A stretch of DNA of 26,624 nt from a virus. Shown here piece after piece: positions 3,663 to 25,967 of this stretch (positions are counted from its first letter, which is position 1; each line of letters opens with the position of its first letter). The DNA lies in the IMG/VR virus record IMGVR_UViG_3300010391_000028, positions 1 to 26,624 of that record. One strand, given 5' to 3'. The notes under the pieces are model-generated. The model was not told the DNA's origin. It saw nothing but the letters and a program-made list of their open reading frames with translations, and did not search any database. The translations under genes were made by a program, and so were the position numbers.

Positions 3663-4198
3663 TGGCGAAGTTGACTGCTGAACAACACATAAAACGGCGC
3701 GCACTATATGCGGCAAAACTCGCCGGTGGATGGGTATCTCCAAAACGCGGGCGAATCAGCCAGCAGCGAATTCCAGCGCAGCAGCGATTCTGGGCAAAAG
3801 TGCAGCGCACACTAACATGCTGGAATTGGATGGGTGCACGCACTACCGCTGGCTACGGCAGGTTCAATCCCGATATCAAGACATTCACCTATGCGCATCG
3901 CTATGTGTATGAACTCATCATTGGTCCGATCCCACCGGGCCTGACGCTTGATCACTTCATCTGTAACAATCGCGCCTGCGTCAATCCGGCCCATTTGCGG
4001 CCGGCGACGCATCGTGAAAACATCCTCCGTGGTAATGGAGCTTCGGCAACGAATGCAGCAAAGACGCATTGTCCGAAGGGGCATCCGTATGATTATGTGA
4101 GAACGACTGGCGGCAGGTGGTGCCGCACATGTGATCGCGCGCTCAACGCAGCATCTAAGCGGCGCGCCAAGGAGCGGCAACATGGCCTACTTGCCTGA
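3662..4198 (+). CDS. HNH homing-type endonuclease with C-terminal zinc motif
   Basis: A 178-aa protein. The start is ATG 3662, overlapping the previous stop (TAATG). Around residues 53-120 it carries the phage HNH_3-type nuclease core: a 'CWNWMGARTTAGYGRF' entry strand, 'YAHRYVYEL', then Leu-Asp-His (96-98), a Cys pair (C101, C106), 'NPAHL' and 'HREN'. A C-terminal zinc motif follows (CPKGHPY, then CRTC). Such HNH proteins are free-standing homing-type or nicking nucleases and are common passengers in phage genomes. It lies between the membrane genes and the endolysin and may have inserted there. It is clearly a relative of the HNH protein at 11768. Confidence 0.88.
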   Translation: MAKLTAEQHIKRRALYAAKLAGGWVSPKRGRISQQRIPAQQRFWAKVQRTLTCWNWMGARTTAGYGRFNPDIKTFTYAHRYVYELIIGPIPPGLTLDHFICNNRACVNPAHLRPATHRENILRGNGASATNAAKTHCPKGHPYDYVRTTGGRWCRTCDRALNAASKRRAKERQHGLLA

Positions 4199-7354: not shown

Positions 7355-8400
7355 CCGCAGGTCTTGGCCAGCAGGGCGATGATGGCGAGCACCACGGCGA
7401 GCAGGATGGCCACGATCAGCGGCCGGTCCTCCATGGGCGCTTCGGGGGGTGGCTGCGGTTCGCCGACCCCTGTTTCGATCGTCACGCCGAGCGCTTGCTC
7501 GACGGCCTGAATCGGGTTGCAGATCGTCTGAGTGCCGTCATCCGAGCCCGCGAACAGCAGTCCCACGCCCGCGTTGCCCGCCGCGTCCTCCATGACGAAC
7601 GACCCCGAGTCACCGCCCTGCGAGAAGGCGCCGACGGATTCGACGAGGATCTGGTCCTCGAAGTAGGCCAGTCCATCGGGGCCGTAGTCCACGTCGAGCG
7701 CTAGGTCCACGGCGGCGATGATGCCGCGCGTCTGATCCGTGGTCCGCCCGACCTTGACCACCGACATGCCGAGCGCCGGGGTCTTCGTGCCGTTCGGCGC
7801 ATAACCGCCCGTGACCGTGACCGCCAGCTCCTCGGACTGCATACTGCGGATCGCGGCGTCCACGAGATTCGGATCGCCATTGAACCTGAGTGGGATGAAG
7901 TCGACCAAGGAGCCCACCGTGTCATTGGCACTACCACCGTCATAGGGGCCTGGTTGCCTGATCGCGTCACCCAGCGCCGCTTGATTGCTGTTGGCATACA
8001 CATGGTTGTTGCTGATCCGTATCCGCCCATACCCCTGGCTGACCGCCACTGGCCCGCCTGTGCCGGCGGTGATCGCGAAGTGGCCCTCTGAGCAGCCCGT
8101 CGCCACGGGTCGCACGCGACCAGATGCCCGCTTTTTGATCGGTTTCAGCACCTTGACGTCGATGTCGTCCAGTGGGTTGTCCACGGCTCCCTGCAGTGCC
8201 CCGTCCAGATCGGCGCGGTCCTCATGGCCCAATGCGGGAGGCGGCTTCTTCTCGCGCACGTAGATCGTCAGGGCCAGTGTGCCAGTCGGCTGCCCACCGC
8301 GCGTCTTCTCGGAGACGCCGACGCCCACGACGCCAGGGTAGCGTTGCTTGAGTCGCCGCGCGTGCGCGGCGACGAGAGCTTGCAGGCGAGATGCATTCAT
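7351..8400 (-). CDS. Trypsin-like serine protease with C-terminal membrane anchor
   Basis: A 349-aa protein. Residues 1-90 are an N-terminal region ('YPGVVGVGVSEKTRGG', 'LTIYVREKK'). Residues ~100-300 look like a chymotrypsin-fold protease with His133 in 'SNNHVYAN', a candidate Asp181 in 'NLVDAAIR' and Ser265 in 'GGDSGSFV'. A Pro-rich linker (312-323) is followed by a single TM helix (about 328-346). No N-terminal signal peptide is visible, so the anchor may be a C-terminal tail. It is in the same operon as the HslV-like protease. Possible roles are virion or host protein processing, or interference with a host function. The protease call is strong; the role is unknown. Confidence 0.8.
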   Translation of the reverse strand: MNASRLQALVAAHARRLKQRYPGVVGVGVSEKTRGGQPTGTLALTIYVREKKPPPALGHEDRADLDGALQGAVDNPLDDIDVKVLKPIKKRASGRVRPVATGCSEGHFAITAGTGGPVAVSQGYGRIRISNNHVYANSNQAALGDAIRQPGPYDGGSANDTVGSLVDFIPLRFNGDPNLVDAAIRSMQSEELAVTVTGGYAPNGTKTPALGMSVVKVGRTTDQTRGIIAAVDLALDVDYGPDGLAYFEDQILVESVGAFSQGGDSGSFVMEDAAGNAGVGLLFAGSDDGTQTICNPIQAVEQALGVTIETGVGEPQPPPEAPMEDRPLIVAILLAVVLAIIALLAKTCG

Positions 8401-8409
8401 GGGCCGCTC

Positions 8410-8817
8410 CTAGAAGGCGAACTCGAGTCCTTCACGAAGATACGCGCGCCAGTACGTCCCTGCCATTCGCCGCAGGTTCACTTTGTATTTCCGACTGAAG
8501 CTCCCGATACCCATGGTATGTAACTCGCCGATGTGGTGCCAGTGGCAGAGTGGTACGCAGTTCTCGCGATCGCCGTGCCGACGTTTGCCGCCCACGTGGG
8601 CGCACTCTGATCCACTCGGCACGGGCCTGCCCGGCGTTAGACAGCAGATGGCGCACGGATGTGTCCCAATCCACGCTCGGTACGCGTCGTCCACGACCCG
8701 CTCGGGCTTGGGCACCGGCTGCGGCATGGGTCCCATGAGCGGGGCGTTCTTGAGCGCCGCTCGCATCTGACGCCGCAGGGCCAGCGGGAGATCAGCGAGA
8801 CGGAGGGGACGGCTCAT
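8410..8817 (-). CDS. Ref/DUF968-type HNH nuclease
   Basis: A 135-aa protein with a basic, Pro-rich N-terminus and a C-terminal zinc/HNH core: Cys55 and Cys58 ('HPCAICC'), 'ECAHVGGKRRHGDRENCVPLCHWHHIGELHTMG' spanning about 71-103 with Cys91, His93, His94 and His100, then 'SF' and a helical end. This arrangement resembles the phage P1 Ref (RecA-dependent nuclease) and DUF968 families, which act on single-stranded or recombination-associated DNA. The start at 8817 overlaps the upstream gene by 26 bases and has GAGG in front of it. No RecA is seen in the window. An alternative is a generic HNH nuclease. Confidence 0.75.
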   Translation of the reverse strand: MSRPLRLADLPLALRRQMRAALKNAPLMGPMPQPVPKPERVVDDAYRAWIGTHPCAICCLTPGRPVPSGSECAHVGGKRRHGDRENCVPLCHWHHIGELHTMGIGSFSRKYKVNLRRMAGTYWRAYLREGLEFAF

Positions 8818-9019
8818 GGGGCCTCGGCACGAGAAGAAGGTGCGTTAGCGCGAGTGCTTCACATCTGCGCTCGATGATTAGTGGTGGCGAGCACGGGCAG
8901 GCTTCAAATGGACGCTCGCAACAGGCACAGACCATTTCATCGACGCCGAATGGATCGGGTATTGCCGGGCGGGCACAAGCCGAGCAATAGCGCACCAGAC
9001 CAACTTCCTCTGGCGTCAT
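8792..9019 (-). CDS. 75-aa zinc-finger mini-protein
   Basis: ATG 9019 overlaps the upstream stop (ATGA). The N-terminal half has three close Cys pairs: 'YCSACARP', 'MVCACCERPF' and 'CPCSPP', a dense zinc-finger or treble-clef-like arrangement. The C-terminal half is hydrophobic/basic and shares 26 bases with the next gene. Operon position suggests co-expression with the nuclease downstream. Function unknown. Confidence 0.55.
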   Translation of the reverse strand: MTPEEVGLVRYCSACARPAIPDPFGVDEMVCACCERPFEACPCSPPLIIERRCEALALTHLLLVPRPHEPSPPSR

Positions 9020-9213: not shown

Positions 9214-10118
9214 GAGGTGCCTTCCTCGCACATGGCCCAGCCGAGCGTCGTGGGTCTCCCAGGCACCGCGATCTCGAGGCCCGTCGCATAGGCATCACGC
9301 AATCCCACCGTCAGCAGATCAGCGCGGTAGGTGGTGAGCCATCCAGCGTGCACGGCGGTGAATAGTGTGAGGGCGGCCCAGGCGGCCCAGGCGGCCCTGG
9401 CGTCCCAGGCGGCCTTGGCGTCCCAGGCGGCCCAGGCGTCCCTGGCGTCCCAGGCGGCCTTGGCGTCCCAGGCGGCCTTGGCGTCCCAGGCGGCCCTGGC
9501 GTCCCAGGCGGCCCTGGCGGCCCTGGCGGCCCAGGCGGCCCTGGCGTCCCAGGCGGCCTTGGCGTCCCAGGCGGCCCTGGCGTCCCAGGCGGCCCTGGCG
9601 GCCCTGGCGCGGGTATCGGCGCGTTGCAGCGCCCAGTTGGAGAGGCCGCGTGCGTTCAGGGCGGCCTTGAGACCAGCCTCGACGCTAGCCACATCCCGCC
9701 AGGGTCGCGCCAACGCACGACCCCACGCGAGCGTCTCCGCAATCAATGGTGCTTGTACCGTGGCTGGGAATGCTGTGTAGAGCGCGCGAAGTCCGTCTAC
9801 CATCTCCGCTTCGGTCGCCCGCGCCATCAGAGTCAACTGTGAGCAACGGGACTTGTTACCATGGTGGATGGTGTCGGCGCTAGACGCGATTCGGAGCACG
9901 ACACTGGGGCGGCCGGTGGGCCAGAGGCCAGCAATCCGCAGCGCGTCGGCGAGTTCCCGGCAGTAGTGCCAGCCCGGCGCGCAGTCCTCGGGTCCCGTGT
10001 CGAGACTCACGGCCGGCAATGAGAATGGCAACGTCTGCCCGTCCCAAATCGGGGCGCCGCCTTGCAGCGGCGAGCGATAGTCGTGGGTCAACACCTTCCA
10101 GCCCGCGGCTTCGGTCAC
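9210..10118 (-). CDS. DUF7666-like protein with a tandem Trp-Asp-Ala repeat
   Basis: A 302-aa protein from GTG 10118 (GTGA overlap, GGAGAG upstream). Residues 1-80 have the phage DUF7666-like pattern ('CAPGWHYCRELADALRIAG', 'LWPTGRPSVVLRIA'). Residues ~100-170 are helical. Residues ~173-250 are a 6-residue repeat: Trp-Asp-Ala-(Arg/Lys)-Ala-Ala, with Trp every 6 residues and about a dozen units. The C-terminus (251-302) is non-repetitive ('VGLRDAYATGLEIAVPG'). The repeat is in frame, so unit number can vary without loss of the gene. A neighbouring gene (10303) appears to belong to the same broad family and also has a repeat. The biochemical function is unknown. Confidence 0.7.
   Translation of the reverse strand: MTEAAGWKVLTHDYRSPLQGGAPIWDGQTLPFSLPAVSLDTGPEDCAPGWHYCRELADALRIAGLWPTGRPSVVLRIASSADTIHHGNKSRCSQLTLMARATEAEMVDGLRALYTAFPATVQAPLIAETLAWGRALARPWRDVASVEAGLKAALNARGLSNWALQRADTRARAARAAWDARAAWDAKAAWDARAAWAARAARAAWDARAAWDAKAAWDAKAAWDARDAWAAWDAKAAWDARAAWAAWAALTLFTAVHAGWLTTYRADLLTVGLRDAYATGLEIAVPGRPTTLGWAMCEEGTS
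9373..9606. repeat. 18-bp in-frame tandem repeat inside the 9210 gene
   Basis: On the plus strand the unit reads gcggcc(c/t)tggcgtccca with small variants (some units lack or add 'ccctggcgg'). In the coding direction it encodes Ala-Ala-Trp-Asp-Ala-(Arg/Lys). Roughly a dozen units lie head to tail. Length changes by slippage would keep the frame in 18-bp steps. It is too short and too regular to be a CRISPR array. Confidence 0.85.
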
Positions 10119-10306: not shown

Positions 10307-10982
<676 letters not shown>

Positions 10983-11597: not shown

Positions 11598-11771
11598 ATG
11601 GCTAATGTGTCTACTCGGCCCGGTACCGCTTGCCGCTCCTGCCAGCGCACGCTCAGCCAGGCGCATCACGGGCCGCCGCGGAAGTTCTGTGCGCGGGCCG
11701 AATGCCAGCGCGCGGCAAACCGGGAGCGGCAGCGCCGCTACCGGCTCCGGGCCAAGGCGCGGGCCGCATGA
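11598..11771 (+). CDS. 57-aa basic zinc-finger protein
   Basis: ATG 11598 is the first rightward start after the divergent region. The product has 'CRSCQRTL' and 'KFCARAECQRAANRERQRRYRLRAKARAA'. Two Cys pairs set in a strongly Arg/Lys-rich background suggest a nucleic-acid-binding mini-protein or regulator. Its stop overlaps the next start (ATGA at 11768), tying it to the HNH gene. Confidence 0.55.
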   Translation: MANVSTRPGTACRSCQRTLSQAHHGPPRKFCARAECQRAANRERQRRYRLRAKARAA

Positions 11772-12448
11772 GGCAAACCCAGACTGCCATTCCTCCATTG
11801 ATCCGTTTCCAGCTTGTGATCTGGCCGCGGGGGGACTGTTGGGAATGGCGAGGTTCCCGCACCATGGCTGGTTATGGCCTTCATCATTGGCTGCGTTGGG
11901 ACCAACCCGAATATGCGCATCGCCATAGTTTTGAGCTGGCCAAAGGTGCCCTTCCCAATGCATCGACCGGGATCGAGTTAGATCATCTCTGCAACCATCC
12001 TTGGTGCGTGCGACCATCACACCTTGTTGCCGTGACGAGCGGTGAGAACACTACTCGGGGCATCCGGTTGCGGCTCAAACCACACTGCCCGCATGGGCAT
12101 CCCTATGAACTGGTAGGGACGAAACGAGTTTGTCGGACGTGCAACCGCGAGCGATGCACCGCACACTACAGAAAACATGCTGTGGAGATACGGGCATCCT
12201 GGAAACGACGGTATGCAAGTGATCCAGCGTTTTGTGAATCGGAGAAGCGACGGGCTAATGCCGCGTATCACCGACTCTATGCCAAGCCTCGCGTAGCTGT
12301 CACGCATTGCCCTAGCGGGCATCCATACAGCGGCAGCAATCTTAGCTATAGCAAGGAGGGCCATCGTCGCTGTCGAGCTTGTGGCAGAGAGTACTACCAC
12401 CGCACTAAGAATCTATTCAATCGGAGAGGAACCCATGGCAGAGGCTAA
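11768..12448 (+). CDS. HNH endonuclease with duplicated C-terminal zinc motif
   Basis: A 226-aa HNH protein (ATGA overlap). The core at about residues 23-100 has 'CWEWRGSRTMAGYGLH', 'YAHRHSFEL', Leu-Asp-His (71-73), 'CNHPWCVRPSHL' and 'GENTTRG'. A zinc motif follows (CPHGHPYEL … CRTCNRE), then a basic linker and a second copy of that motif (CPSGHPYSG … CRACGREYYH). The HNH protein at 3662 has only one copy. It is likely a homing-type nuclease. Its end overlaps the 12435 gene by 14 bases. Confidence 0.88.
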   Translation: MRQTQTAIPPLIRFQLVIWPRGDCWEWRGSRTMAGYGLHHWLRWDQPEYAHRHSFELAKGALPNASTGIELDHLCNHPWCVRPSHLVAVTSGENTTRGIRLRLKPHCPHGHPYELVGTKRVCRTCNRERCTAHYRKHAVEIRASWKRRYASDPAFCESEKRRANAAYHRLYAKPRVAVTHCPSGHPYSGSNLSYSKEGHRRCRACGREYYHRTKNLFNRRGTHGRG

Positions 12449-13418
12449 AAGTCTGGCGCCATCGCCAGCGAAGCCGTCCATGCTCGAACGCTTGTTGACG
12501 GTCGCCCAAACACCGGAGGAACGCTGGCGGGCATTCGCGATCGCCGAGCGTCATCAGCAAAACCTCATCGTGCAGGAAATCTTGGCCGAGGTTAAGGCCA
12601 AGTCGTGGGGTGATCGCGTGTCTCCCGCCTTGCGTGCAGAGATCGTGCGCTGGGCGTTGGATCACGGAGCTGATCCCGTGGATGAGGTCGATGTGCTGGG
12701 CGGTGCTCCATGGCTCAACGCCCGCTTCTGGCAACGGATGGTTCGAGGCGAGCCAGATTTCCTGCGCGCTGAGGAAGTCTGGGTGCATGACGATCCACGG
12801 GCCACGGAGGAGGTACGTGCCGAGCGCAGGGCCTTGCGTGTACAGTATGCCGTTCCTGATACCATCGACGGCAACCTCGGCATCAAGCAGGCTGACCGAA
12901 AGAAGGATCCCACGCCCGTGCCAGTGCGTGCGGCCGTGCTACTCTGGCTCTACTTCGATGGTCGGGGCCCCTTTCTCGGTAAGAAACACAGCCCGTCGCG
13001 GGCCAATGACGATGTTGGTCTTGATTTTCCTGAGCCTACGGCACTTACTCGTGCGTGGCGTAAGGCCGCACTGCAAGCCGTGCGACGCGAAACGCCGCTG
13101 ACGGCACGCCTGCGTGATTTGGCGGCACAGCAGCGCGTGTTCTCCAAGGTCCCGCCCGGCCCCGGCGAGGAGCAGTTGGGCGCCATCATCGAGGGAATGC
13201 CAGCCGAGCCGTTGCAGATCAAAGCGGGCACGCAGGCGCGGCCCGTCAGCACGGAGGAGGCCGCCGACCTGAGCGAGCAAGCCGTGGTGACGGTGAGCGA
13301 GTCAGCGCAGCCCACAATGACACGGCACAGCCCGAATCTGATTTGCCCCACGGCTGGCGAACACGAGTGGGCGAACTGCGGGCACAACAAGCCGCAGCCC
13401 CCGAAGGCGGCGGCATGA
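12435..13418 (+). CDS. Unknown 327-aa protein, possible DNA-metabolism role
   Basis: ATG 12435 has GGAGAGG upstream. No catalytic motif is certain. Residues 1-90 are helical and charged. Residues 85-105 read 'LDHGADPVDEVDVLGGAPWLNARFWQRM', a pattern I associate with phage proteins near recombination genes. A later 'GKKHSPSRANDDVGLDFPEPTALTRAWRKAALQAVRRETPL' stretch also looks conserved. A disordered Pro/Glu-rich stretch follows, and the end carries possible zinc ligands (C…H…C…H in 'CPTAGEHEWANCGH'). It could be a recombination or annealing protein, but this is weak. It ends in an ATGA overlap with a small gene. Confidence 0.6.
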   Translation: MAEAKSLAPSPAKPSMLERLLTVAQTPEERWRAFAIAERHQQNLIVQEILAEVKAKSWGDRVSPALRAEIVRWALDHGADPVDEVDVLGGAPWLNARFWQRMVRGEPDFLRAEEVWVHDDPRATEEVRAERRALRVQYAVPDTIDGNLGIKQADRKKDPTPVPVRAAVLLWLYFDGRGPFLGKKHSPSRANDDVGLDFPEPTALTRAWRKAALQAVRRETPLTARLRDLAAQQRVFSKVPPGPGEEQLGAIIEGMPAEPLQIKAGTQARPVSTEEAADLSEQAVVTVSESAQPTMTRHSPNLICPTAGEHEWANCGHNKPQPPKAAA

Positions 13419-13663: not shown

Positions 13664-13890
13664 TCCGCGCTCGCCTGGTGCGCTGGCTGCATTGGCGCTT
13701 GCCGTTCGCTTGGCTGCCACGGTGGGCCAACAACGCCTTGGCACGCTTCGCGTGGAGAAGCCACACTTACCGGACGGAACTTATGAGTTGTGTGGGCCAA
13801 AGGTGCAGGGCAATCCCGAGGGCTTGTCTGCTCATGTGCTCGTGCGGCACGGAGTGGAAATCATTCAGGATGCGCCCCGCGAATACTTAG
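13660..13890 (+). CDS. Small basic ORF, doubtful
   Basis: ATG 13660 overlaps the preceding stop (ATGA), which favours it, but the product is Arg/Trp/Cys-rich and low-complexity ('WLHWRLPFAWLPRWANNAL'). Another frame (13752) looks more protein-like from about base 13750. The N-terminal part may be real and joined to the other frame by a frameshift. Kept as a low-confidence candidate. Confidence 0.3.
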   Translation: MIRARLVRWLHWRLPFAWLPRWANNALARFAWRSHTYRTELMSCVGQRCRAIPRACLLMCSCGTEWKSFRMRPANT

Positions 13891-14018
13891 CGCTCAAGTA
13901 TTATTTCGCTCGCGTGAACATCGAAGGCATCGTTTGGCATCACCAGGATGGCCGCATGGTCAAGATCAAAGGCAAGGATTTCGGCATCAAACGTGCGCTG
14001 ATCATTGTGGGAGGGTGA
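13752..14018 (+). CDS. Hypothetical 88-aa protein
   Basis: GTG 13752 gives a natural-looking product with Pro/Gly-rich turns, 'GTYELCGPKVQGNPEGLSAH', 'YYFARVNIEGIVWHHQDG' and 'KIKGKDFGIKRALIIVGG', likely alpha/beta. No good Shine-Dalgarno precedes it, and TTG 13692 is an in-frame alternative. It is the last protein-coding gene before the long non-coding stretch. It overlaps the 13660 ORF in another frame, and only one of the two frames may be used at each position. Confidence 0.5.
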   Translation: MEKPHLPDGTYELCGPKVQGNPEGLSAHVLVRHGVEIIQDAPREYLALKYYFARVNIEGIVWHHQDGRMVKIKGKDFGIKRALIIVGG

Positions 14019-14039
14019 GCGACTGGCAGAACTGAAGCG

Positions 14040-14745
14040 TGAACGGCAGGGCGTGGCCCTACGGGTGGAATCCGTAACCGGGGCCTGTCTCGTAAGCCGC
14101 GGACGAAATCCCGGTCAGCCGTGGCACCGCGCGTGCGGTAGGGAATGGGTCGTCCTGCCGGCCTCTTGACAGAATCGCCGTAGCCCGTACCTTGTCGGAG
14201 TACCGCTACTAGCCCGCGAACTGGTGGGCGGTGCGAACAACTAGGGTCAGATCGGTGGAGCGCCTGTCTTTGTTCCTCCCGCCTCGGTCCTGACCCGCCG
14301 AGATCGGGGTTCGCGGAATGAAGCGGGCGCTTCTCTTTGCGCCCCAGAAGTCGGGTTGGCTCCCTGCCTGTCCGAGCCACGCAAGGCTAGCGAGGATGCC
14401 GCTAGCGCCCGGTTGCGGTGCCAGGCGAGGTCGAGCGTGTAGGCCAACGATCCCGAATAGGAGAATCCTGTACGGGCTCAGTAGCGCGGTGAAGCTCGGC
14501 GCGGGTTCAAGTCCCGCCACCGCCGTCAGTCGGTAGGGTCGCGTAAAGCCGGTCCCTCGTCTCATGGCGGCGCAGCGGTGGAAACACTGACTGGCATGCC
14601 AGGGACAGCATGAGGCAGGGAGCAGTCCCACGGCCCAGAGCCGCGCCGGAGTGGCGAGCGCGGGGGCCCTACCGATGGCAGAACACGATGACGGCCGCCA
14701 GTCTGCCGCCAGTCCCGTGCGGCGGAGTACCAAGGGACTGGCCAT
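14040..14745 (+). ncRNA. Candidate large structured non-coding RNA (~700 nt)
   Basis: No convincing gene lies between 14019 and 14763, yet strong stems follow each other. These are 14048-14060 (AGGGC/GCCCT), 14061-14075 (ACGGGT/ATCCGT), 14077-14115 (ACCGGG/CCCGGT), 14126-14139 (ACCGC/GCGGT), 14244-14296 (GGGTCAG/CTGACCC), 14325-14344 (GGGCGC/GCGCCC), 14357-14379 (TGGCTC/GAGCCA), 14386-14406 (GCTAGCG/CGCTAGC), 14452-14476 (two-part stem), 14641-14663 (CCGCGC/GCGCGG, with outer GGCCC/GGGCC) and 14708-14742 (GCCAGTCCC/GGGACTGGC). Strand, ends and family are uncertain. Length, phage context and an internal tRNA-like arm recall large phage RNAs such as GOLLD or ROOL, but I cannot recall their consensus well enough to assign one. 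Overlapping minus-strand ORFs look like shadows. Confidence 0.5.
14227..14525 (+). other. tRNA-like element: acceptor-type closing stem plus near-perfect T-arm
   Basis: At 14501-14517 there is a canonical T-arm (GCGGG, loop TTCAAGT, CCCGC), followed at once by CACCGCC (14518-14524), placed exactly where an acceptor 3' strand belongs. Its perfect 7-base complement GGCGGTG lies at 14227-14233, so the two can close a ~299-nt domain. Just before the T-arm is a D-arm-like stretch (GCTCAGTAGCGCGG). No anticodon arm is visible, and CCA is not encoded. tmRNA is disfavoured: there is no G3-U70 pair and no recognisable tag with stop. An intron-bearing, degenerate or mimic tRNA remains possible. Confidence 0.4.
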
Positions 14746-14763
14746 CGCGCTGGTTCAGGTTGC

Positions 14764-14910
14764 ATGGGTGAATCATTGAACGAAGCAATAGAGCGGGAGA
14801 TTGATGCCGTCCTTGACCGCATCGAATTCCGGCTCCTGAAACTGGAAGCACAGTACGGAGACACGTCCCATCCGCTCCGGCGGTGGTGGCGGCAGTTGCG
14901 AAATCGGTAG
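14764..14910 (+). CDS. 48-aa helical mini-protein
   Basis: ATG 14764 begins a compact, charged product ('LNEAIEREIDAVLDRIEFRL' then an aromatic/basic end with 'RRWWRQLRNR'), strongly predicted helical. Composition is unlike the random frames nearby, which favours coding, but there is no good Shine-Dalgarno. It follows the structured non-coding region directly. Function unknown. Confidence 0.45.
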   Translation: MGESLNEAIEREIDAVLDRIEFRLLKLEAQYGDTSHPLRRWWRQLRNR

Positions 14911-15026: not shown

Positions 15027-15491
15027 GTGCGCCCAAACCTGACCCCCAATACCAATACAAAGACGGGCTACCCAGAGGCTAGTACGGACACCGATGCCGA
15101 GGTCCCTGCCTCGACGGTGACTGGAATCCAACTAGCCCTTGAGACCATCCGCAGCAGGGCATTCGTTCCCCCCTCGACCTACTGGCCGATGTACCAACTC
15201 TCCGATGGGGAACTGGATCTCTTGCTGGCGAGCCTCATGGAGCACGATGCCCACGCCAACTATCCCGTGCGCTGCTACGTCGGTAAGTACGACGGGGACG
15301 ACTGGCTACTGGCCTTCGGGGAGAGCCAAGAACACGGCGAGGTGCAGGTGAGCACCGACCGGGTCCACTGCTCTCAGGTGCGCGGCGATGCATGGGACGA
15401 CGCCCAGGCCTACGTGGGCCTCCGAAACAACCTGCCGAGCATCATCGCCAGCCTCGAGGAACTCCTCCAGTGGCGCTTGGGGCGGCGATGA
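15027..15491 (+). CDS. Hypothetical 154-aa protein
   Basis: GTG 15027 follows a strong GGAGGAAGG. Residues 1-30 are Thr/Pro-rich and probably disordered. The rest is acidic and alpha/beta ('YQLSDGELDLLLASLMEHD', 'CYVGKYDGDDWLLAFGESQEHGEVQV', 'LRNNLPSIIASLEELLQWR'). No TM or catalytic motif is visible. Its end overlaps the next start (ATGA at 15488), so it begins a coupled plus-strand run leading to the helicase. Function unknown. Confidence 0.6.
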   Translation: MRPNLTPNTNTKTGYPEASTDTDAEVPASTVTGIQLALETIRSRAFVPPSTYWPMYQLSDGELDLLLASLMEHDAHANYPVRCYVGKYDGDDWLLAFGESQEHGEVQVSTDRVHCSQVRGDAWDDAQAYVGLRNNLPSIIASLEELLQWRLGRR

Positions 15492-15899: not shown

Positions 15900-16115
15900 A
15901 TGGCTCTGCCAAATCCCAACCTCACGACGCCGGGCGATCCGGCATCACGCGCTTGGCTGTCCCAGGACCGCGACGGCGAACGCTATTGGCTCGTGTTTGG
16001 AACGCGGAAGATCGCCTACGTGCGTGCGGAGACCGTGCAGCAGCTCGCGGCCCTCGACAACGGCTTCGGACCGCGGGAGTTAGTCTCCATGGAACGGCTC
16101 TCCGTTCACCGATGA
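15900..16115 (+). CDS. Hypothetical 71-aa protein preceding the helicase
   Basis: ATG 15900. The product contains 'WLSQDRDGERYWLVFGTRKIAYVRAETVQQLAAL', a small beta-beta-alpha fold, and ends in a 4-base overlap with the helicase start at 16112 (ATGA), so the two are co-translated. It might be a helicase partner, but no family is recognised. Confidence 0.55.
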   Translation: MALPNPNLTTPGDPASRAWLSQDRDGERYWLVFGTRKIAYVRAETVQQLAALDNGFGPRELVSMERLSVHR

Positions 16116-16588
16116 CCGCGACGTATAGCGAGTTCCTGCAGCGCAAGGCCCAGTTGGGTGGCCAGCACGGCTTCGCGCCCGTCTGGATGCCATCCTTCCT
16201 GTTCGATTTCCAAGCGGCACTCGTGGACTGGGCACTTTGGAAAGGCCGCGCCGCGATCTTCGCCGACTGCGGGCTCGGCAAGACACCGATGCAACTGGTC
16301 TGGGCGGAGAACGTCGTTCGGCACACCAACAAGCGCGTGTTGATTCTCACGCCATTGGCGGTGACCCATCAGACGCTCGCCGAAGCGGCGAAGTTCGGGA
16401 TTGCTGCGCGCCGGGCGCATACACCGACCGACGGCTTGGCCGACATCACGGTCACGAACTACGAGCGCCTGCACCACTTCGATCCGACGGAGTTTGTCGG
16501 CGTGGTGTGCGACGAGTCCTCCATTCTCAGCGTTCATGCGGAAGCTGCCCTATCGGCTACTCTGCACGGCCACTGCTGCGCCGAATGA
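16112..16588 (+). CDS. SNF2-like helicase, N-terminal fragment (frameshifted)
   Basis: The 158-aa fragment holds the ATPase front half: a lead-in 'FDFQAALVDWALWKGRAAIFADCGLGKT' (Walker A GLGKT at 54-58), 'RVLILTPLAVTHQTLAEA' (motif Ia) and 'ITVTNYERLHHF'. It reaches 'VVCDESS' (134-137, a DExx motif) and then runs into unrelated sequence until the stop. The proper continuation is in another frame (16536), so a gene of about 450 aa is broken at about 16530. Motor proteins of this SNF2/DEAD type use ATP to move on DNA; in phages they often sit beside methyltransferases, as here. Either a real indel or an assembly error explains the break. Confidence 0.8.
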   Translation: MTATYSEFLQRKAQLGGQHGFAPVWMPSFLFDFQAALVDWALWKGRAAIFADCGLGKTPMQLVWAENVVRHTNKRVLILTPLAVTHQTLAEAAKFGIAARRAHTPTDGLADITVTNYERLHHFDPTEFVGVVCDESSILSVHAEAALSATLHGHCCAE

Positions 16589-17462
16589 TTACATCGAGAT
16601 GGGCACGAGTAGCGAAGCCTTGGGCTACCTCGGGCATATGGACATGCTCAACCGCTTTTTCAAGAACGACGCGAACAATGTTTCGCAAGGACGGAAATAC
16701 GGACAAGTCGTGAAGTGGCGTTTCAAGGGCCACGCCGAAGTCCCCTTCTGGCGCTGGGTCGCCTCATGGGCTCGAGCGGCCCGACGTCCGTCCGATCTAG
16801 GCTTCGCCGATGATCGATTTCATCTCCCGCCGCTGACGGAACGCGAACATCCAGTCGTGGCTCGAGAACTTGCCGAGGGCATGTTGTTCGCCCTGCCGGC
16901 GCTGTCGCTGCCCGAACAACGGGAGGAACGGCGCCGGACGATTACCGAACGCTGCGAACAAGTGGCGCGGCTCGTGGTTGGTACTGGACAGCCCGCGCTT
17001 GTGTGGTGCCACCTCAACCCCGAAGGTGATCTGTTGACCAAGTTGATTCCTGGGGCTGTACAAGTGAGCGGATCCGACAGCGACGACGCCAAAGAGGAGA
17101 AGTTCCAAGCGTTCACCAGCGGTGCCGTCCGGGTGCTGGTGACCAAGCCGAAGATCGGCGCTTGGGGGTTGAACTTTCAGCACTGCGCTCACGTCGCCAT
17201 GTTCCCGTCGCACTCCTATGAGCAGTACTATCAGGGTATTCGGCGGTGCTGGCGGTTCGGCCAAACGCGCCCCGTCGTGGTGGATGTGGTCACGACCGAA
17301 GGTGAAACACGCGTGCTGGCGAATCTACAGCGCAAAGCCGCACAAGCTGATGCGATGTTCACGCGATTGGTCGCGGCGATGCGCGATGCGCTGAGCGTCA
17401 CGCCGACAGTGGCCGCGACGGCTACCACGGAGGTTCCGGCATGGCTGTCGCCCAGCAGTTGA
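16536..17462 (+). CDS. SNF2-like helicase, C-terminal fragment (frameshifted)
   Basis: The 308-aa fragment continues the helicase in another frame, beginning 'MRKLPYRLLCTATAAPNDYIE' (motif III, TATAAPND). It then carries the second RecA-like domain: 'PALVWCHLNPEGDLLTKLIP', 'VRVLVTKPKIGAWGLNFQHC' (motif V) and 'YEQYYQGIRRCWRFGQTRPV' (motif VI, with the Arg finger pattern QxxRRxxRxGQ). The conserved stretch between DESS and FMRKL (about 13-17 residues in related proteins as I recall them) is missing. This suggests a deletion not divisible by three rather than a simple single-base slip. Its end overlaps the methyltransferase start by 22 bases. Confidence 0.8.
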   Translation: MRKLPYRLLCTATAAPNDYIEMGTSSEALGYLGHMDMLNRFFKNDANNVSQGRKYGQVVKWRFKGHAEVPFWRWVASWARAARRPSDLGFADDRFHLPPLTEREHPVVARELAEGMLFALPALSLPEQREERRRTITERCEQVARLVVGTGQPALVWCHLNPEGDLLTKLIPGAVQVSGSDSDDAKEEKFQAFTSGAVRVLVTKPKIGAWGLNFQHCAHVAMFPSHSYEQYYQGIRRCWRFGQTRPVVVDVVTTEGETRVLANLQRKAAQADAMFTRLVAAMRDALSVTPTVAATATTEVPAWLSPSS

Positions 17463-18723: not shown

Positions 18724-19004
18724 TTCTTCCCGATGCGCGCCGTGGGGGAACGGTGCCACGCTGCGCCTGCGGTACCCCGCTCGCGTTCGCCACGTGGGAC
18801 GGATACCTCTACGAATGGTGCGCGGCCTGCCGACGCGAAGCCCCGGTGCCACTCGTTGGGAAGCGGCGCTATCCCCAGACGGCGGATCACGTGGCTTTGT
18901 TGCGGGCGGGTGTGGCTCGGGCACGCCGACGGCTTCCAGCGATCAAACGCAAGCCGGGCTCGCTGGGCAGTGCCAAAGGCCCACATTTGTGGAAGGGGGC
19001 ATGA
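18720..19004 (+). CDS. Zinc-ribbon protein
   Basis: A 94-aa protein with an N-terminal ribbon ('PRCACGTPLAF … EWCAACRREAP') and a basic C-terminus ('ARARRRLPAIKRKPG'). ATGA overlaps link it to both neighbours. It is probably a nucleic-acid-binding accessory protein of the replication/modification cassette. No specific family is recognised. Confidence 0.6.
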   Translation: MILPDARRGGTVPRCACGTPLAFATWDGYLYEWCAACRREAPVPLVGKRRYPQTADHVALLRAGVARARRRLPAIKRKPGSLGSAKGPHLWKGA

Positions 19005-19081
19005 CGGCCGTGCTGGCGCGCGCGGTGAAGCGGGCGCTCGGCCTGCCGCTTGACCAATCCGCACCCTGTGGTCTACCTTAG
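19001..19081 (+). CDS. 26-aa ORF, doubtful
   Basis: ATG 19001 overlaps the preceding stop (ATGA) and encodes a 26-residue Ala/Leu/Arg peptide. Only the coupling supports it. It ends before the holin-like gene and may be spurious. Confidence 0.25.
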   Translation: MTAVLARAVKRALGLPLDQSAPCGLP

Positions 19082-19114
19082 GGCCTAGCAGTGCACCTTT
19101 TACGGGAGGGCAAT

Positions 19115-25649: not shown

Positions 25650-25960
25650 TGCCTACGCTGCCCATGCGTCCCTGTCCTGTGCCCGGGTGCCCGGCATTGG
25701 TCCAGCGGGGGCGGTGTCGCACGCACAGCCGACAACGCGAGGGTCAGCGTGGTAGTGCTCACGCTCGAGGCTATGGCCACCGCCACCGCCAGTGGCGGTT
25801 GCTGGTGTTAGCCCGACACCCCGTCTGCCCATGCGGTCAGGCAGCGATGGAAGCTGATCACATCGTGCCTCTCGCACAGGGGGGCACTTGGGCGCTAGAA
25901 AACGGGCAGGGATTGTGCAAGCGATGCCACAGTCGGAAGACGATGCGGGAGCAGCAGTGA
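25649..25960 (+). CDS. Small HNH endonuclease (packaging-associated type)
   Basis: A 103-aa protein from ATG 25649 (TAATG overlap; ATG 25631 adds six residues). It has an N-terminal Cys/His cluster ('CPVPGCPALVQRGRCRTH'), 'RGYGHRHRQWRLLVLARHPVCPCGQ', then Asp70-His71 ('ADHIVPLAQGGT'), Asn85 and the 'CKRCHSRKT' end with His94. This is the classic HNH fold seen in HK97 gp74-like proteins, which support terminase in DNA packaging. It is followed by a head-tail connector gene, which fits a packaging module. Confidence 0.88.
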   Translation: MPTLPMRPCPVPGCPALVQRGRCRTHSRQREGQRGSAHARGYGHRHRQWRLLVLARHPVCPCGQAAMEADHIVPLAQGGTWALENGQGLCKRCHSRKTMREQQ

Positions 25961-25967
25961 GTGCCCT

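Follow-up and report, generated by a model that had tools for sequence, protein, structure and literature searches.

A gene-free interval in a phage genome fragment

The whole stretch of DNA analysed here (the window) is a complete IMG/VR record of 26,624 bases, a fragment of a phage genome, and the question it raises is what lies in an interval of more than 700 nt in which no gene can be recognised. The record has recognisable genes for tail, lysis, head and connector functions, for a helicase and for a DNA methylase; the collections searched contain nothing closely related to it. An earlier note had described the interval as gene-free, had proposed it as a candidate large structured RNA (GOLLD, ROOL, a divergent relative or a new class), and had stated that conserved protein coding would speak against this. 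With codon log-likelihoods trained on the record's own genes, all six frames are negative or near zero from about 13981 to 14760, and one frame is clearly positive on each flank; a self-trained gene caller placed nothing across 14019-14763 (745 nt, 66.7% G+C). None of the open reading frames in this gap matched a Pfam or PHROG family at a credible E-value, and the longest, of 178 amino acids on the minus strand (14209-14745), gave no hit when compared by tblastn with 50,697 phage records. Protein coding with frameshifts was considered and rejected, as codon scores, profiles and tblastn gave no hit for it. The gap is non-coding, as had been claimed, and conserved protein coding was not found there. 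The further statement that it is the only gap above 300 bases holds in part: the caller also left 8401-9015, 18724-19114 and 25650-25967 empty, but each of these has a plausible open reading frame, and the present gap is the longest without one. A weak frame of 48 amino acids on the plus strand (14764-14910; codon score 0.13, no family match) lies downstream of the gap, before the next convincing gene (15027-15491).

The surroundings of the gap are poorly represented elsewhere. The upstream gene at 12381-13418 has a single relative in IMG/VR, in locus L049, and for the 154-amino-acid protein downstream no relative was found in IMG/VR. The gap in L049 was considered as kin of the window gap and rejected as unrelated (best E 0.31); the same locus carries, on its minus strand at 8350-8408, a type-P5 twister ribozyme that scores 44 bits and exceeds its cut-off. 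Two HNH endonuclease genes are present in the window (3830-4198 and 11630-12448), and the gap begins about 1.6 kb downstream of the second. Tandem repeats of 18/63 nt (9372-9609), collagen-like in character, and of 12/36 nt (10627-10956) lie within minus-strand open reading frames. An SNF2-type helicase at 16112-17462 is divided between two reading frames with a break at about 16.5 kb, the DESSIL motif being in one frame and CTATAAPNDYIE in the next; this may be an indel, an assembly error or a broken gene.

A tRNA-derived element within the gap

Within the gap, the plus strand at 14484-14525 reads GCGGTG-AAGCTCGGC-GCGGG-TTCAAGT-CCCGC-CACCGC and forms an acceptor and T-arm minihelix (GCGGTG/CACCGC and GCGGG-TTCAAGT-CCCGC). 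The Rfam tRNA model (RF00005) has its sole match in the record here, at 14485-14525, with 20.9 bits and an E-value of 0.001, a score under the 29-bit family cut-off and so short of RF00005 membership. The model aligned from the first to the last position of the element, which has a T-arm with a TTCRANY loop and a paired acceptor and folds as expected. The D and anticodon arms are missing, only 9 nt separate acceptor and T stem, and ARAGORN called no tRNA. ARAGORN likewise gave only a spurious hit elsewhere for a tRNA with an intron in the anticodon loop, a candidate that was dropped.

On its 3′ side, T-arm and acceptor together are identical at 25 of 26 nt to a tRNA-Met gene from Nocardia phage P3.1 (MW582532.1, L296:1456-1531). 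That gene shares the GCGGTG acceptor 5′ strand and also lies in a gene-free gap, but it has a full cloverleaf with a CAT anticodon and CCA, whereas the window element lacks the D and anticodon arms and CCA. When tiles of 1008 nt were compared with 54 distinct tRNAs, the tile holding the element was the best of 26 (E 1.9e-5, with 0.003 for the runner-up). Across 168 sequences (1.6 Mb), T-arm hairpins with TTCRANY loops were 7.5 times denser in non-coding than in coding DNA (0.068 against 0.009 per kb), so when one lies in a gap it is usually related to tRNA. The whole set contained 3 acceptor-plus-T-arm hairpins with a short insert, compared with 11 across 18 control loop classes; given this rarity, one within a 745-nt gap is unexpected by chance. 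Judged from these comparisons, a tRNA origin of 14484-14525 is well supported, and the link to tRNAs suggested earlier stands, through the single tRNA-model match in the gap and its identity to a phage tRNA-Met.

A larger tRNA-like fold at 14415-14525 (plus strand), with the same T-arm, the same GCGGTG/CACCGC acceptor and one arm of about 70 nt, may be an alternative; its predicted minimum free energy (MFE) is -48.4 kcal/mol (z -1.64). In a phage with an RLIG1 gene (L009:3155-3260, and likewise L010), we also observed a tRNA-like hairpin that apparently has no anticodon arm and is closed by a perfect stem of 22 bp, CTTTGATACGCGCTATCGGGGC / GCCCCGATAGCGCGTATCAAAG.

A truncated RNA ligase directly upstream

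The gene ending at the upstream edge of the gap (13692-14018, plus strand) encodes an RLIG1-type RNA ligase reduced to its C-terminal half. It matches Pfam RLIG1 (PF17720) with an E-value of 9e-11 over profile positions 179-272 of 324, the RNA ligase family phrog_14301 over positions 106-186 of 186, and RNA ligase 1 in PDB entry 9c6m with an E-value of 5e-7. Motifs III, IV and V of RLIG1 (C12orf29) are present (GTYELCGPKVQGNPE, EGIVW and KIKGKDFG), but the half with motif I is not: N-terminal halves taken from 11 full-length homologues, used as queries, found no such sequence in the window. The ligase is truncated relative to its homologues, and since the missing half carries the lysine that is adenylated in RLIG1 (K57 in the human protein, PMC11494293), the encoded protein is expected to have no ligase activity. 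The pairing of RLIG1 genes with large gaps was also considered as a recurrent arrangement and set aside; several such pairs were seen in other phages, and some of those gaps contain genes that had been overlooked, or the ligase itself.

Stems, folding and known RNA families

The earlier note had called the region packed with stems. The stems that it quoted (14244-14250 with 14290-14296, 14386-14392 with 14400-14406 and 14708-14716 with 14734-14742) pair exactly, but their number is no more than chance provides. Counting perfect Watson-Crick stems of at least 7 bp with loops of 3-45 nt, we found 4, against 2.52 ± 1.68 in dinucleotide shuffles, 26% of which reached 4, and 2.19 ± 1.62 in other 706-nt windows of this G+C-rich genome. 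The perfect 9-bp hairpin GCCAGTCCC/GGGACTGGC near the downstream gap edge (14708-14742, plus strand) is equalled in stem length in 16.5% of shuffles and, having no T-run, is no standard terminator, as a terminator scan confirmed by not calling one there. A cloverleaf can be drawn on the plus strand at 14324-14411, with a 7-bp stem CGGGCGC/GCGCCCG and a 5-bp arm TAGCG/CGCTA. It is not preferred by MFE (z -0.60); acceptor-plus-arm combinations of this type occur 8 times on the plus strand of the window, with about 0.2 expected in the gap. This drawing, like another at L049 12026-12115, was rejected because such drawings arise by chance at the observed rate, and it is probably a chance product.

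Folding gave a mixed answer. The energy of the 706-nt region, -345.6 kcal/mol, is below that of all 20 shuffles in one comparison (z -3.3) and has z -2.3 against 80 shuffles, and the minus strand folds less well (z -1.8). Tiled genome windows average z -0.18 ± 1.36 (12 shuffles each), z falls to -3.2 in a coding window at 19096 (12 shuffles), and in 150-nt windows the gap has a mean z of -0.64 against -0.07 ± 1.11 genome-wide. The whole region folds moderately lower than shuffles, the local z-values and the stem count are at background, and an excess of structure is not confirmed. The structure of the gap is compatible with a large RNA but does not establish one.

Nor did the search for known families identify the region. 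Rfam gave no match in the record at gathering score, and at E ≤ 10 only tmRNA and mascRNA fragments below cut-off, both through one T-arm; the tmRNA candidate (19 bits) was rejected because the T-arm alone carries its score. The GOLLD model (RF02032, conserved 3′ region), run directly, had no candidate in the record at E ≤ 10, and the ROOL model (RF03087) no match at E ≤ 10, a silence that is weaker evidence as the control set contained no positive genome. The group II intron domain RF01998 did not match either. GOLLD resembles the gap as a phage non-coding stretch of several hundred nucleotides with an embedded tRNA-like element, and ROOL as a phage non-coding RNA often found near tRNAs (PMC12286853), but neither model matches, and evidence of conserved structure was not obtained for the gap. 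With models silent, stems at chance and a fold energy unexceptional for this genome, the proposed GOLLD or ROOL identity is not upheld. DNA searches of phage and plasmid records and of fetched loci (up to 2.7 Mb) found short matches alone, strongest at the T-arm, and nothing homologous to the gap.

A 24-nt string from the T-arm and acceptor occurs exactly in only 2 of about 85,000 genomes, within YrlA-like RNAs of Actinomadura and in no ordinary tRNA. These bacterial RNAs share the string with the gap, but in the window element the acceptor is not followed by a permuted D-arm, a Ro60/TROVE gene was not found, and the YrlA model (RF02553) has no match in the window. A permuted tRNA, which the match to Actinomadura had suggested, was rejected; the matched sequences are YrlA-like RNAs, and the window lacks the downstream half. 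The Actinomadura loci themselves (L087:2160-2600 and L088:6480-6920) hold tandem permuted tRNA-like elements that ARAGORN labels tRNA-Pro and that score 38-47 bits with the YrlA model, under its 69-bit cut-off. We regard them as divergent Y RNA-like genes.

What the gap may be

The explanation that we favour, tentatively and at slightly less than an even chance, is that the gap is the remains of a phage tRNA and RNA-repair region in which both the tRNA and the ligase have lost their working parts. The ancestor would have carried a tRNA, or several, together with an RLIG1-type ligase. RLIG1 can join cleaved tRNA in vitro (PMC11494293), which makes such a region a natural ancestor. Recombination or deletion would then have cut short both genes: a tRNA-Met-type gene would have lost its middle, the D and anticodon arms, leaving an acceptor and T-arm hairpin of about 42 nt, and the ligase gene directly upstream would have lost its N-terminal catalytic half. 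The other ~700 nt would be decaying non-coding sequence, with demonstrated structured RNA confined to the tRNA-derived element. We infer a common history for the two losses and the lack of any function in the element itself. Stem density and fold energy near background outside the element support this course of events. Against it stand the G+C content of 66.7%, which is not lowered as that of old decaying DNA might be, and the low plus-strand fold energy of the whole gap (z -2.3 to -3.3); moreover, phages seldom retain some 700 nt of useless DNA. No homologue with an intact tRNA and ligase at this position was found, so the deletions are deduced from distant relatives.

The same length and gene-free state would also suit a single large RNA, structured, functional and of a new class, GOLLD-like in style and with an embedded (pseudo-)tRNA, which we consider unlikely. 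A fold below all 20 shuffles, z -2.3 with 80 and a plus strand stronger than the minus agree with it, as do the pseudo-tRNA predicted in the GOLLD of Mycobacterium (PMC6582537) and the location of GOLLD and ROOL near tRNA islands (PMC12286853). It is opposed by the chance-level stem count, the ordinary local z-values, the lack of an Rfam match, the silent GOLLD and ROOL models, kissing-loop candidates within the gap that are no better than those of shuffles, and the failure to find gap homologues, hence any covariation. A reading of the gap as a single transcript, representing a new class of large phage RNA that has an armless tRNA built in and was originally produced or repaired by the neighbouring RLIG1-type ligase, appears distinctly unlikely. 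A smaller functional unit, a non-decoding tRNA-like RNA in the form of the 42-nt hairpin or of a 112-nt form at 14415-14525, is rather unlikely; it might act, for example, as a decoy for host factors that cleave or bind tRNA or as a ligase substrate, roles to which we give the same low standing. Intact acceptor and T-arm pairs, a tRNA model aligned from end to end and the adjoining ligase relic would fit it, but the discriminator is followed by TCA and not CCA, the first acceptor pair is C-C, a close homologue sharing the deletion was not found, and the adjacent ligase has no catalytic half.

The gap might instead have a cis-acting DNA role, as an attP with a tRNA 3′ end in common with the host, a replication origin or a packaging site. 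In its favour, the cores of phage attP sites often match tRNA 3′ ends, and GC skew rises mildly at about 13.7-15.0 kb. We consider such a role improbable: no tyrosine or serine recombinase was found in the record, itself a fragment, iteron-like repeats are absent, and the 24-nt string recurs exactly in those two genomes only, in YrlA-like RNAs rather than ordinary tRNAs. Least probable is an assembly error or mis-joined metagenomic sequence, which the split helicase (perhaps an indel) and the abrupt start of the ligase might suggest; G+C content and surrounding genes are continuous, and the gap far exceeds what an indel could explain.

A kissing-loop RNA in related loci

In two of the phages with RLIG1 genes (L003 and L029), a non-coding element lies immediately 5′ of a tRNA. 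This element (L003:4150-4320, L029:6125-6335) recurs at L174:6448-6580, L206:1190-1295 and about 70 other loci. Drawn from 62 distinct sequences, its layout is an outer stem of any sequence within which GAAT is followed by a hairpin with loop AGGCTGAT, a variable stretch of 30-160 nt and a second hairpin, with loop AGATCAGC. In the 62 sequences, six columns of the outer stem are 95-100% paired and show all four Watson-Crick types, with 160 compensatory cells where shuffles give 43 (maximum 55). Neither loop varies among these sequences, and the two are complementary and predicted to kiss. Because the search pattern fixed the first hairpin, the constancy of that hairpin is in part built in; the pattern played no role in finding the second hairpin and the outer stem, with rows chosen, however, for GATCAGC.

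An exact-pattern scan of IMG/VR with the first hairpin gave at least 120 matches, and the RNA is present in at least 240 phage records. One variant occurs, unannotated, in 107 of 5,426 E. coli genomes; an example site is the interval between a Q-like antitermination gene and the holin gene of a lambdoid prophage. tRNAs or T-arm-like sequences are often found alongside. Rfam 15 has no match to it, and a limited literature search found no paper naming it. A relaxed two-hairpin search on both strands found no such pair in the window. In L003 and L029, the 5′ strand of the outer stem has an apparent second partner upstream, of the same sequence as the normal 3′ partner (ACCAACAC..TGTGTTGG..CCAACACC; GCTCTC..GAGAGC..GCTCTC), so two mutually exclusive, switch-like pairings are possible.

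Implications

As it stands, the gap is a modest case of the erosion of phage tRNA and RNA-repair genes, and the kissing-loop RNA, which is widespread, strongly covarying and not in Rfam 15, is likely the more valuable lead. The armless tRNA would matter more if it were a true stable RNA, since phage RLIG1 ligases have, to our knowledge, no known substrate and tRNA mimics are plausible weapons against host defences that cut tRNA.
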